Position numbers and translations under genes: made by a program. The notes below the pieces were generated by a model, which searched no databases, was not told the origin of the DNA, and saw only the letters and a program-made list of their open reading frames with translations. A stretch of DNA of 64,000 bases from an uncultured Sphingobacteriales bacterium (GTDB lineage Bacteria; Bacteroidota; Bacteroidia; Chitinophagales; Chitinophagaceae). This document shows positions 18,911 to 20,152 of this stretch, one piece after another. How positions within the stretch are numbered: position 1 is the first letter of the stretch; each line of letters opens with the position of its first letter. The stretch covers positions 1-64,000 of the forward strand of contig CALMQS010000014.1 of NCBI GenBank assembly GCA_937871285.1, given 5' to 3'.

Positions 18911-19189
18911 ATGGAATCAGGGATAGCCAGATTTGACACAAGACTTTCCAAAGCTCAGAAAGAATTTTTCGAATACGCGGCAAATTTAGGCGGCTATAGA
19001 ACGTTGACCGAATTTGTTATTAACTCTGTGCAGAGTAAGGCGGATGAAATTGTAGAAAAACATACTTCTATTATTGCATCGAAGCGGGATCAGGAAATTT
19101 TCTTCGAGGCCATAATGAATCCGGCCGTGCCCGGTAAAAAACTCAGTGTTGCTGCCAAAAAATACAATAAACTGGTGAAGCAGAAATGA
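18911..19189 (+). CDS. TacA-like antitoxin (DUF1778 family)
   Basis: The 92-residue protein has an N-terminal ribbon-helix-helix-like region (IARFDTRLSKAQKEFFEYAANLGG, then a TEFVI helix) and a charged C-terminal helix that would wrap the toxin. That is the DUF1778/TacA layout. Its TGA overlaps the toxin ATG by four bases, the usual translational coupling of such pairs. A palindrome 24 bases upstream is the likely site for self-repression. Confidence 0.85.
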   Translation: MESGIARFDTRLSKAQKEFFEYAANLGGYRTLTEFVINSVQSKADEIVEKHTSIIASKRDQEIFFEAIMNPAVPGKKLSVAAKKYNKLVKQK

Positions 19190-19689
19190 GTTACATAACA
19201 GTTCCTTTAGATACTTCTCACAATAAAGAAAATTTTAATTGTGGGAAACCGCTGCTTAATTCCTGTTTACATAAACAGGCAAAGCAAGCAGTGAAAAGGA
19301 GGCTTTCCGCTTGTTTTATTCTTCGTGATGGAAAAGAAATAAAAGGGTATTATACGCTTTCTACCGCTTCTGTTGAAAAAAGGATGCTGCCGCAGGAAAT
19401 TATCAAAAAATTGCCTCCCTCATACAATGACCTGCCAGCGATATTATTAGGCAGATTAGCTATTAATAGAAGCTATCAGGGCCAGGGATTGGGAGAACTG
19501 ATTTTAATGGATGCCTTAAAAAGAAGTTATTTCGCTTCAATGCAAGTTGGATCAATGGCAGTAATAGTAGACCCGCTGGATGAGGAAGCGGTAAGATTTT
19601 ATAAGCAATATGATTTTATTCTTCTTAGTGATAGCGGTAAGATGTTTTTGCCGATGGCTACAATTGTTTCGCTATTCCCCGATGTGTAA
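19186..19689 (+). CDS. TacT-like GNAT acetyltransferase toxin
   Basis: Known TacT toxins acetylate the amino group of charged tRNAs and stop translation. This 167-residue GNAT protein has the acetyl-CoA loop Q98-G-Q-G-L-G103 after LLGRLAINRSY. It has a C-terminal tyrosine in FYKQYDF (Tyr139 or nearby) at the position of the catalytic residue in the family. It is preceded by, and overlaps, the DUF1778 antitoxin gene. It would be inactive while bound to the antitoxin. Confidence 0.87.
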   Translation: MSYITVPLDTSHNKENFNCGKPLLNSCLHKQAKQAVKRRLSACFILRDGKEIKGYYTLSTASVEKRMLPQEIIKKLPPSYNDLPAILLGRLAINRSYQGQGLGELILMDALKRSYFASMQVGSMAVIVDPLDEEAVRFYKQYDFILLSDSGKMFLPMATIVSLFPDV

Positions 19690-19752
19690 ATAATTTCTTA
19701 TTGTATAAGGGAATGCTGCTGTCGAAATACATCTGTCGGACATATCAAATCG

Positions 19753-19788
19753 AAAAAGAGGTTGTCTCAATGTAAATGAAACAACCTC
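19753..19788 (-). terminator. Rho-independent terminator of tRNA-Pro
   Basis: GAGGTTGT at 19758-19765 pairs perfectly with ACAACCTC at 19781-19788. Read leftward, the stem is followed by a run of T (19753-19757). It starts about 9 bases beyond the tRNA 3' end. Confidence 0.85.
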
Positions 19789-19796
19789 CTAAAGAG

Positions 19797-19870
19797 TCGG
19801 GACGACAAGATTCGAACTTGCGACCCCTAGCACCCCATGCTAGTGCGCTACCGGGCTGCGCTACGTCCCG
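19797..19870 (-). tRNA. tRNA-Pro (anticodon GGG)
   Basis: The minus strand folds as a full cloverleaf: acceptor CGGGACG pairing with CGTCCCG, D-stem GCGC/GCGC, anticodon stem CTAGC/GCTAG around the loop ATGGGGT, and T-arm with TTCGAAT. The loop places GGG as the anticodon, which reads CCC and CCU proline codons. The 3' CCA is not encoded. Terminator-like sequence follows. Confidence 0.96.
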
Positions 19871-19903
19871 AACACTATGCAAGATGATTATCCTGCAAGT
19901 ATC

Positions 19904-19990
19904 TTTGTATATCCTTCTTTCAACATTTTCTGTACTGCCAACATAATACTTTTGTAAAGAACTGCTGTATATAATATACACCCAAAACAT
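19904..19990 (-). pseudogene. Remnant of a GIY-YIG nuclease gene
   Basis: The 29 codons from the ATG at 19990 encode [20 protein letters not shown] followed by VERRIYK. This is the first part of a GIY-YIG domain, with VYII for the first motif and YYVG for the YIG motif. The rest of the domain, including the catalytic Arg/Glu region, is absent: the frame runs into the tRNA-Pro gene and its terminator. It is best read as the truncated 5' end of a former nuclease gene. Confidence 0.65.
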
Positions 19991-20007
19991 GTTCCATATA
20001 GTTTAGC

Positions 20008-20068
20008 AACTTGCGACCCTCCCGCCCTCAGGCGGGATGCGCTTACAGAGGGACGCTACGTCCCGAAC
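20008..20068 (-). pseudogene. Degenerate partial copy of tRNA-Pro
   Basis: On the plus strand 20008-20019 (AACTTGCGACCC) and 20054-20068 (CGCTACGTCCCGAAC) are identical to parts of the intact tRNA-Pro and its leader. The order and spacing are the same. Between them the anticodon arm is replaced by a perfect hairpin, TCCCGCC-CTCA-GGCGGGA (20020-20037). The T-arm 3' half and the acceptor 3' strand are missing, so it cannot work as a tRNA. Confidence 0.6.
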
Positions 20069-20152
20069 TGTGTTAACGGGCTGCAAAAGTAGCTTAAAAT
20101 TCCAATTTCAAAAAATCAATAAATAGCATTTATCTTCGCTGAACTTTTCACA

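Follow-up and report, generated by a model that had tools for sequence, protein, structure and literature searches.

GIY-YIG nuclease genes lodged beside tRNA genes in Bacteroidota: a decayed unit at tRNA-Pro and its relatives

Introduction

The free-standing homing endonuclease SegB of phages T4 and T6 was reportedly studied by Brok-Volchanskaya in 2008. In the available portions of a later source, SegB is described as cutting within tRNA genes, adjoining them, and driving their tandem amplification; in phage T6, the SegB-dependent tandem amplification comprises tRNA-Tyr and segB, and the motif is given as RAWTSGAAC (PMC13096335). A second precedent comes from fungal mitochondria, where mORFs are found in Glomus at atp6, atp9, cox2, and nad3 and in Allomyces at atp6 (PMC3630166). 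In the accessible text of that source, an mORF is a free-standing endonuclease ORF at a gene whose end has been duplicated, with one copy making up the working gene and the other displaced to the far side of the ORF, and the arrangement is ascribed to endonuclease-driven insertion (PMC3630166).

Here, we describe a locus in a 64,000-nucleotide stretch of DNA (hereafter, the window) from an uncultured Sphingobacteriales bacterium, along with related units, each comprising a small GIY-YIG gene and copies of a tRNA gene. As far as the available portions of the source allow comparison, the units resemble SegB in their GIY-YIG domain, their free-standing gene, and their position next to tRNA genes of many isotypes (PMC13096335). 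SegB is phage-borne, however, whereas the nucleases of the tRNA units are chromosomal, have a single domain of ~80-100 aa, and are accompanied by hairpin-broken tRNA copies on their far side. They resemble mORFs in that an endonuclease ORF lies between a working copy and a displaced partial copy (PMC3630166). In contrast, mORFs target mitochondrial protein genes (the Glomus atp6 example being a LAGLIDADG enzyme), while the tRNA units appear to target bacterial tRNA genes; further, the accessible mORF text mentions no hairpin, unlike the hairpin-broken copies of the tRNA units (PMC3630166). Group I introns in tRNA genes that carry GIY-YIG enzymes likewise place a GIY-YIG nuclease at a tRNA gene. 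Yet such introns interrupt the tRNA, whereas the intact tRNA of the units is uninterrupted and Rfam, at gathering scores, identified only tRNA and no intron in the window. By our comparison, the underlying principle is already known from SegB and mORFs, with the host, target range, size, and hairpin-disabled copies differing.

Results and Discussion

A Truncated Nuclease Gene Between Two Copies of tRNA-Pro

On the minus strand, the locus is ordered as promoter-like element, broken tRNA-Pro copy, GIY-YIG start, intact tRNA-Pro(GGG), and terminator-like repeat (Table 1). The promoter-like element is presumably of the Bacteroidota type. ARAGORN and Rfam agree on the intact tRNA that had been called in a sequence-only reading of the window, and this tRNA-Pro(GGG) is single-copy among the 47 tRNA genes found in the window's genome. 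The 29 codons of a GIY-YIG start proposed in the same reading were recovered by profile search, residues 1-29 of the ORF matching Pfam PF01541 at 29.9 bits (cut-off, 22.6; E = 7e-7); the remnant and its relatives alike score above the curated cut-off for this superfamily domain. From an ATG at 19990 (-), about 26 of the 29 matched codons are original, after which a 126-nt in-frame deletion fuses them to the last codons of the gene, the position of the junction being ambiguous across a shared AAGG. The residue aligned with the invariant Glu (E62) of relatives was lost within this deletion and, because it sits in the deleted part, the nuclease copy of the window should be inactive.

Table 1. Features of the tRNA-Pro locus in the window.
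Feature	Position	Strand	Basis or content
Intact tRNA-Pro(GGG)	19796..19870	-	ARAGORN and Rfam RF00005, 60.5 bits
Residual ORF, 81 aa	19745..19990	-	Truncated GIY-YIG start, last codons of the gene, tRNA read-through
GIY-YIG domain start, 29 codons matched to PF01541	19904..19990	-	
Deletion junction, 126 nt in frame relative to the full orthologue of G003	19912..19917	-	Alignment to L090
Broken tRNA-Pro copy	~20008..20068	-	Leader and 5' end, altered D-arm, hairpin, variable/T-arm bases
Hairpin TCCCGCC-TGAG-GGCGGGA replacing the anticodon arm	20020..20037	-	Perfect 7-bp stem, 4-nt loop
Promoter-like element of the tRNA	20083..20116	-	TTTTTTGAAA ... TACTTTTGC; read from sequence
Terminator-like inverted repeat and T-run, 3' of the intact tRNA	19750..19788	-	

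The broken copy has the same leader bases as the intact tRNA, as had been claimed, with exact blocks of 15 nt (20054-20068 = 19859-19873) and 12 nt (20008-20019 = 19815-19826), and it terminates in the T-loop. The description of its anticodon arm as replaced by a 7-base hairpin stands as to the perfect 7-bp stem, but is incomplete, as the D-arm is altered too. This copy scored under the threshold of 14 in a genome-wide scan for tRNA copies. A search of the 64-kb window for the motif TCCCGC(3-9 nt)GCGGGA gave a single occurrence, and no integrase-sized ORF is present between the tRNA and the neighboring genes.

Adjoining the tRNA unit on the plus strand (18911-19689) are two genes that overlap by 4 nt, one for a TacA1-like antitoxin (PF08681, E = 2e-18) and the other for a GNAT acetyltransferase; they are likely a TacA-TacT toxin-antitoxin pair.

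States of the Locus Across the Genus

The pyrC/tRNA-Pro locus was compared across the genus in 12 genomes, among them the window's (G000); these represent different species rather than strains. pyrC was detected in all 12 genomes, 8 of which have tRNA-Pro beside it and 4 of which show none there. In G003, which encodes a PyrC protein 92 percent identical to that of the window, the locus (L090) comprises two broken copies, a full gene, and the intact tRNA; compared to it, the window lacks one broken tRNA copy and has a single 126-nt in-frame deletion in the ORF. The complete gene of this congener agrees with the proposal that the window holds a tRNA-flanked unit that has decayed. In G009, a broken copy, a full gene, and the intact tRNA are followed by hairpin- and terminator-bearing repeats of the 3' half. 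The decayed state was found in G000, while in G010 the intact tRNA is followed by a degraded unit and in G001 and G004 by repeats in tandem (no fewer than 3 and 2, respectively). G006 and G011 have no upstream partial copy, and none scoring above 9 in the 600 nt downstream. The sequence-only reading had suggested a search of sister strains for different states of the locus, and occupied, decayed, downstream-repeat, and bare states were all found, between species. Such occurrence of occupied and unoccupied states at one locus, here between species, is characteristic of homing genes.

The promoter region is kept in all eight genomes that have the tRNA at the locus. The promoter box lies 28 nt from the intact tRNA in G010, 26 nt in G001, 52 nt in G006, and 87 nt in G011; in G004 it lies at 81 nt, with a second box at 38. 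The corresponding distances are 220 nt in G000, 460 nt in G003, and 448 nt in G009, from which it follows that the upstream unit sits between the tRNA promoter and the intact tRNA. In G011 and G004, the leaders of which are longer, older events could be concealed.

Intact tRNAs are identical between occupied and bare loci (G009 = G011; L068 = G006), and a host-cassette hybrid tRNA is therefore not discernible in the pairs compared. This identity counts against homing, since it leaves a nuclease that reads only the tRNA no evident way to spare its own locus. Resistance encoded in the intact tRNA was considered and rejected, as the occupied and bare tRNAs of the pairs compared are identical.

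Units Elsewhere in the Window's Genome

A PF01541 search of the window's genome returned eight places. These include a 605-aa frame that we take to be, probably, UvrC, a 456-aa frame, and a gene (L003) with a stop-broken neighbor (L002); L003 groups with another, sister GIY-YIG clade. Four of the eight places are standalone tRNA-unit genes, namely the window's and three others (L001, L004, and L005), which are likewise flanked by tRNA copies. L001 comprises a broken tRNA-Arg(TCT) with two palindromes, the gene, and the intact tRNA. In L005, the order is intact tRNA-Arg(CCG), gene, and a copy with two palindromes, and in L004 it is partial copy, gene, and a copy with its anticodon arm replaced by an 18-nt hairpin, followed by the contig end. 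Within 450 nt of 8 of the 47 tRNA genes there is an extra partial copy that reaches the threshold of the genome-wide scan, compared to 0 of 47 with one shuffle per flank.

At another locus of this genome (L305, contig C5), two tandem broken tRNA-Arg(ACG) copies, 104 nt apart, lie upstream of the intact tRNA; each carries a 20-bp palindrome, and the contig has no GIY-YIG match. L305 is either a unit minus its nuclease or a miniature form. Several contigs of the same assembly (C85:1, C77:2, C119:2, C27:3, C117:1, the end of C15, and the start of C81) begin or end at tRNA genes or partial copies. tRNA repeats may break assemblies, such that the true number of units may exceed the count.

Anatomy and Distribution of the Units

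Unit anatomy was examined, among the matches listed, at 80 loci with small GIY-YIG genes in 26 related genomes (G011:C164, G001:C118, G009:C27, and the second match on G010:C21 were left out). The recurrent unit comprises a hairpin-broken tRNA, a GIY-YIG gene of ~80-100 aa, and an intact tRNA, or the mirror image of this order. Where the intact tRNA is downstream, the leader and 5' part of the tRNA are followed by a hairpin, sometimes by bases up to the T-loop, and then by the gene, the end of which extends into the intact tRNA or its leader. Where it is upstream, the tRNA and its terminator precede a gene that starts soon past the T-run, followed by a partial copy that begins near the D-arm and continues to the 3' end; a second terminator is often present. 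This latter flanking, an intact tRNA upstream and partial copies reaching the tRNA 3' end beyond the ORF, is of the mORF type. The intact tRNA is upstream in 26 and downstream in 18 of the 44 tRNA-labeled rows among the matches listed. Partial copies were found on both sides of the tRNA, 5' halves among them, and all tRNAs listed as adjoining a gene in the nuclease-sequence search or the phylum sample described below share its strand. ARAGORN calls three copies of one tRNA in L042 and two in L023.

On our own reading, the SegB motif RAWTSGAAC would be the reverse complement of the tRNA T-loop sequence GTTCSAWTY; this T-loop counterpart of the motif, as given in the available part of the SegB source, is where some broken tRNA copies end. 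One fixed truncation site in the T-loop was rejected as a general rule, because the ends of broken copies span the T-loop and the anticodon region.

The ORFs of Asn-type nucleases (L070, L043, L060, and L073) extend into the broken tRNA and hairpin, and their C-terminus (..LAQLVRVPHVRD) is encoded by tRNA and palindrome.

Genome contigs were further searched with the nuclease sequence only, and the best 80 of at least 493 relatives, a set biased toward Arg-type nucleases, were analyzed. A same-strand tRNA was identified within 600 nt of the ORF at 77 of these 80 loci, most within 60 nt, and at each of the three exceptions (L129, L142, and L191) the contig ends within 60 nt of the ORF. With 47 tRNAs in the 5.3 Mb of the window's genome, we estimate that such adjacency would arise by chance in <1 percent of cases. 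Opposite the tRNA, a second partial copy was detected at 65 of 75 scored loci of the same best 80 and not at the other 10, using a score cut-off of >=12 that shuffled flanks reach in 3 of 1500 cases; five loci were unscored (three without a tRNA, one with the tRNA beyond 220 nt, and one with a flank of <60 nt). Complete GIY-YIG genes between two tRNA copies, which the sequence-only reading had named as the pattern to look for in other Bacteroidota, are on these counts abundant. The organisms belong to six Bacteroidota classes, along with a few records labeled Chlorobiota, Omnitrophota, and Patescibacteria; most of these records are metagenome bins, and the odd phylum labels are provisional. 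At least three loci occur both in this set and among those of the 26 related genomes (L119 = L040, L121 = L015, and L187 overlaps L019).

In an even sample of Bacteroidota, 63 of 99 genomes, as tallied, had a nuclease-profile match at E = 1e-6 or better. Among the 29 strongest genomes (the window's excluded, one best match each), 24 best matches lie no more than 450 nt from a same-strand tRNA; of the five that do not, three are close to a contig edge (133 nt or less). Adjoining tRNA genes is a trait of the SegB family that the units display in the nuclease-sequence search and the phylum sample alike. Being phage-encoded is another trait of that family, which the units do not share as far as a single query extends: tblastn of one relative matched 1 of the 50,697 phage records searched. 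That match is distant (40 percent identity), and a phage vehicle was rejected on this basis. PHROG homing-endonuclease families match weakly, with a best E of 1.2e-7.

Nuclease Lineages and Their tRNA Targets

Phylogenetic reconstruction of 87 GIY-YIG proteins over 86 columns, from the matches listed, yielded a tree with many weak forks (5 of 92 rows, of <60 aa, were left out, the window remnant included). Among the matches listed, the tRNA-type group holds 63 rows, 44 of which have a tRNA within 200 nt of the gene, compared to 0 of the 24 rows in its sister clade; several of the 19 tRNA-less rows in the former are at contig ends or in tandem arrays. The sister clade (L030, L045, L048, L061, and L078, among others), putatively of the UPF0213 type, is common in the same and related genomes, and UPF0213/Slx1-type proteins share their fold with the tRNA-unit nuclease. 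Mapped onto the tree, the 18 states of tRNA species require 20 changes, compared to a mean of 34 and a minimum of 30 in 300 shuffles. One Met clade has labeled rows from three host families and an unlabeled member from a fourth, the Asn clade spans two host families with an unlabeled member from a third, and the Val and Arg(TCT) clades span two each. Nuclease lineages accordingly retain their target across hosts, as homing genes do.

AlphaFold2 predicts a confident single GIY-YIG domain (pLDDT 92.6). Among solved structures, this fold comes closest to UPF0213 BH0048, Slx1, and At-HIGLE; I-TevI ranks tenth and has a poor E-value. Y5, Y16, G18, R26, and E62, which we take to be the catalytic positions, are invariant in 18 of 18 relatives. 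A match to NCBIfam grpIintron_endo was obtained for 11 of 18 members, in the one case given at a score far under the cut-off (24.5 versus 56.05 bits).

Hairpins and Palindromes in Broken Copies

A perfect stem of >=6 bp was detected in 82 of 121 interruptions, compared to 98 of 2420 length-matched windows drawn at random from these loci, and at least one stem-bearing interruption occurs at 63 of 81 loci. When two loci common to both surveys were dropped and identical interruptions were counted once per locus, the values were 73 of 112 interruptions and 61 of 79 loci, although rows remain non-independent given that relatives recur. Thirty-nine of the 121 interruptions have no 6-bp stem. Copies of one tRNA usually have the hairpin at the same position, whichever side they are on and across genomes: between 25 and 36 in Asn, 41 and 51 in Asp, ~28 and 46 in Val, ~38 and 49 in Met, and ~27 and 45 in Pro, while in Arg(TCT) a 20-mer is inserted between 22 and 23 with no bases lost. 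Extra sites lie between ~12 and 20 in Met, between 17 and 18 and between 50 and 51 in Arg(CCG), at two positions in Leu, and between 14 and 18 in one Asp copy.

An identical 20-bp palindrome, CCTGCCTGCCGGCAGGCAGG, occurs in broken tRNAs of records assigned to Bacteroidota, Chlorobiota, Omnitrophota, and Patescibacteria. It is present in the broken copies of L194 (Chlorobiota) and L175 (Omnitrophota) and within the units of L188, L171, and L196 (Patescibacteria). In the window's genome, the 20-mer is found at eight places, three in broken tRNA copies and five away from tRNAs, and TCCCGC..GCGGGA at 13 places, four of them in or beside tRNA copies. The exact 20-mer was found in only 9 of 99 phylum genomes, as tallied, and lies beside a tRNA at 2 of 12 loci read outside the window's genome. 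The palindromes are concentrated at tRNAs, yet not exclusive to them. GC-rich stems of >=8 bp number 5 in the window, compared to 1.4 in shuffles. An origin of the hairpin as a dispersed repeat was rejected, as such hairpins are rare in the window and palindromes concentrate at tRNAs.

Palindromes away from tRNAs in G000 were recorded at L202-L206, L209-L215, L218, and L219, and those of L204 and L206 lie within similar flanks (...cacgaa[palindrome]a.cacgaag...). The palindromes may be mobile in their own right. In the open-licence literature searched, the palindrome core is absent as a word.

Homing Into tRNA Genes as the Best Reading

We consider the window locus to be, probably, a dead copy of a tRNA-targeting homing cassette. 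More broadly, the units are best read as free-standing GIY-YIG homing cassettes in tRNA genes that leave the tRNA intact, with cleavage and homing being steps that we infer. Homing is the best explanation because the arrangement is mORF-like, occupied and bare alleles exist, and nuclease lineages are faithful to their targets. Also in its favor are the other units in the window's genome, the tRNA adjacency, second partial copies, and recurrent hairpins in the surveys, the confident GIY-YIG fold, the low dN/dS of the nuclease genes and the tandem arrays (both described below), and the precedent of SegB. The earlier proposal of a homing-type nuclease using tRNA genes as sites gains support in that its codons match GIY-YIG and full relatives are abundant, so that neither of the two outcomes it had named as refuting was seen; cleavage of the tRNA gene and biased inheritance are what this reading would predict.

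A complete cassette would comprise a single-domain GIY-YIG gene, the adjoining intact tRNA, and a hairpin-disabled partial copy opposite. The nuclease would cut the same tRNA gene in a cassette-free allele, and repair of the break from the cassette-bearing copy would bring the cassette in while an intact tRNA is retained. Part of the old tRNA would remain outside the cassette as a partial copy, in the arrangement seen at the loci described above. The hairpin, which recurs in such leftover copies, might render them uncuttable, useless as tRNAs, or non-recombining. Further breaks and repair could multiply units in tandem, giving arrays of the kind described below, and the nuclease would in time decay by mutation, as in the window. 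In the upstream type, in which the cassette lies between promoter and tRNA, the nuclease and a single-copy tRNA may share a transcript.

Several observations count against homing. The nuclease has one catalytic domain and no separate DNA-binding domain, and I-TevI ranks only tenth among related folds. Truncation points vary, and 10 of the 75 scored loci (of the best 80 of at least 493) lack a second copy. The 39 stemless interruptions and the extra hairpin sites in Met, Arg(CCG), Leu, and Asp also fit poorly, and some flanking copies still score as tRNAs (L023 and L042).

A stronger version of the homing reading, which we hold tentatively and consider possible rather than probable, is that the nuclease reaction itself installs stock palindromes (TCCCGC..GCGGGA and the 20-mer) at preferred positions of the displaced copy. 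Hairpin capture would then be a part of homing and not later decay, and the units would form a pervasive, undescribed class of chromosomal selfish DNA. If so, the 20-mer shared by records of Bacteroidota, Chlorobiota, Omnitrophota, and Patescibacteria would be the trace of one mechanism.

Alternative Explanations

The nearest folds of the nuclease, with I-TevI only in tenth place, together with its single domain and the recurrence of hairpins in broken copies (the same 20-mer under four phylum labels), would also be expected of a Slx1/UPF0213-like structure-specific nuclease that acts on cruciforms or hairpins in tRNA genes, in which case the palindromes would be substrates or products rather than a lock. 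However, the nuclease clade tracks tRNA species, which points to sequence recognition, and the 20-mer lies away from tRNAs at five of its eight places in the window's genome. We regard this explanation as unlikely.

The units also form tandem arrays. L250 (in G089) has 7.9 copies of a 364-bp unit that comprises a nuclease gene, a hairpin-broken tRNA-Met piece (in the stretch examined), and a terminator; at other loci there are two or three nuclease genes in a row, or short gene-less repeats. Such arrays resemble the SegB-dependent amplification in phage T6, as far as the available text describes it (PMC13096335). The nuclease genes, in turn, look constrained at the sequence level, with dN/dS of 0.06-0.28 in the 17 of 21 hand-chosen pairs for which it was computable, values that are rough, with dS above 1 in several pairs. 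Arrays and low dN/dS are what might be expected of a gene that serves the host by amplifying or repairing tRNA loci, for example to raise tRNA dosage under a tRNA-cleaving toxin or defense system. SegB does so for phage T6, in the portions of the source available (PMC13096335), and three copies in L042 and two in L023 are still called as tRNAs. Nevertheless, the tRNA copies added in L250, in the stretch examined, carry hairpins and should yield no working tRNA, units are absent, decayed, or reduced between congeners, and many different tRNA species are involved. A host-serving role is accordingly improbable, more so than a structure-specific nuclease.

Integrative elements commonly use tRNA genes as attachment sites. 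The partial tRNA copies resemble att repeats, and the nuclease could be leftover cargo at an ordinary integration hotspot that uses tRNA 3' ends. This is very unlikely, as the units are only a few hundred bp long and those examined could not accommodate an integrase, copies occur on both sides of the tRNA with 5' halves included, adjoining tRNAs are on the strand of the gene, and the target tracks the nuclease clade. A chance tandem duplication of a tRNA with an unrelated GIY-YIG fragment in between, to which the short matches in the window alone would lend themselves, is refuted by the survey, since the unit recurs in many genomes, and can be set aside almost entirely.

Implications

The homing reading and the recurrence of the units suggest that tRNA genes host a class of selfish DNA that has received little notice. 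This class is undescribed in the open-licence literature searched, in which no paper was found that combines GIY-YIG, tRNA gene, Bacteroidetes, and homing endonuclease, and in which most related titles concern fungal mitochondria, phages, or other topics; it may have been described elsewhere. If the homing reading is correct, many Bacteroidota genomes would house small nuclease genes at tRNA genes, some of them single-copy, which would account for the orphan GIY-YIG proteins and the partial copies of tRNAs that these genomes contain. The units would give phage SegB a chromosomal counterpart, and they would form a naturally occurring panel of nucleases, covering many tRNA species, with a specificity that would be directly testable.
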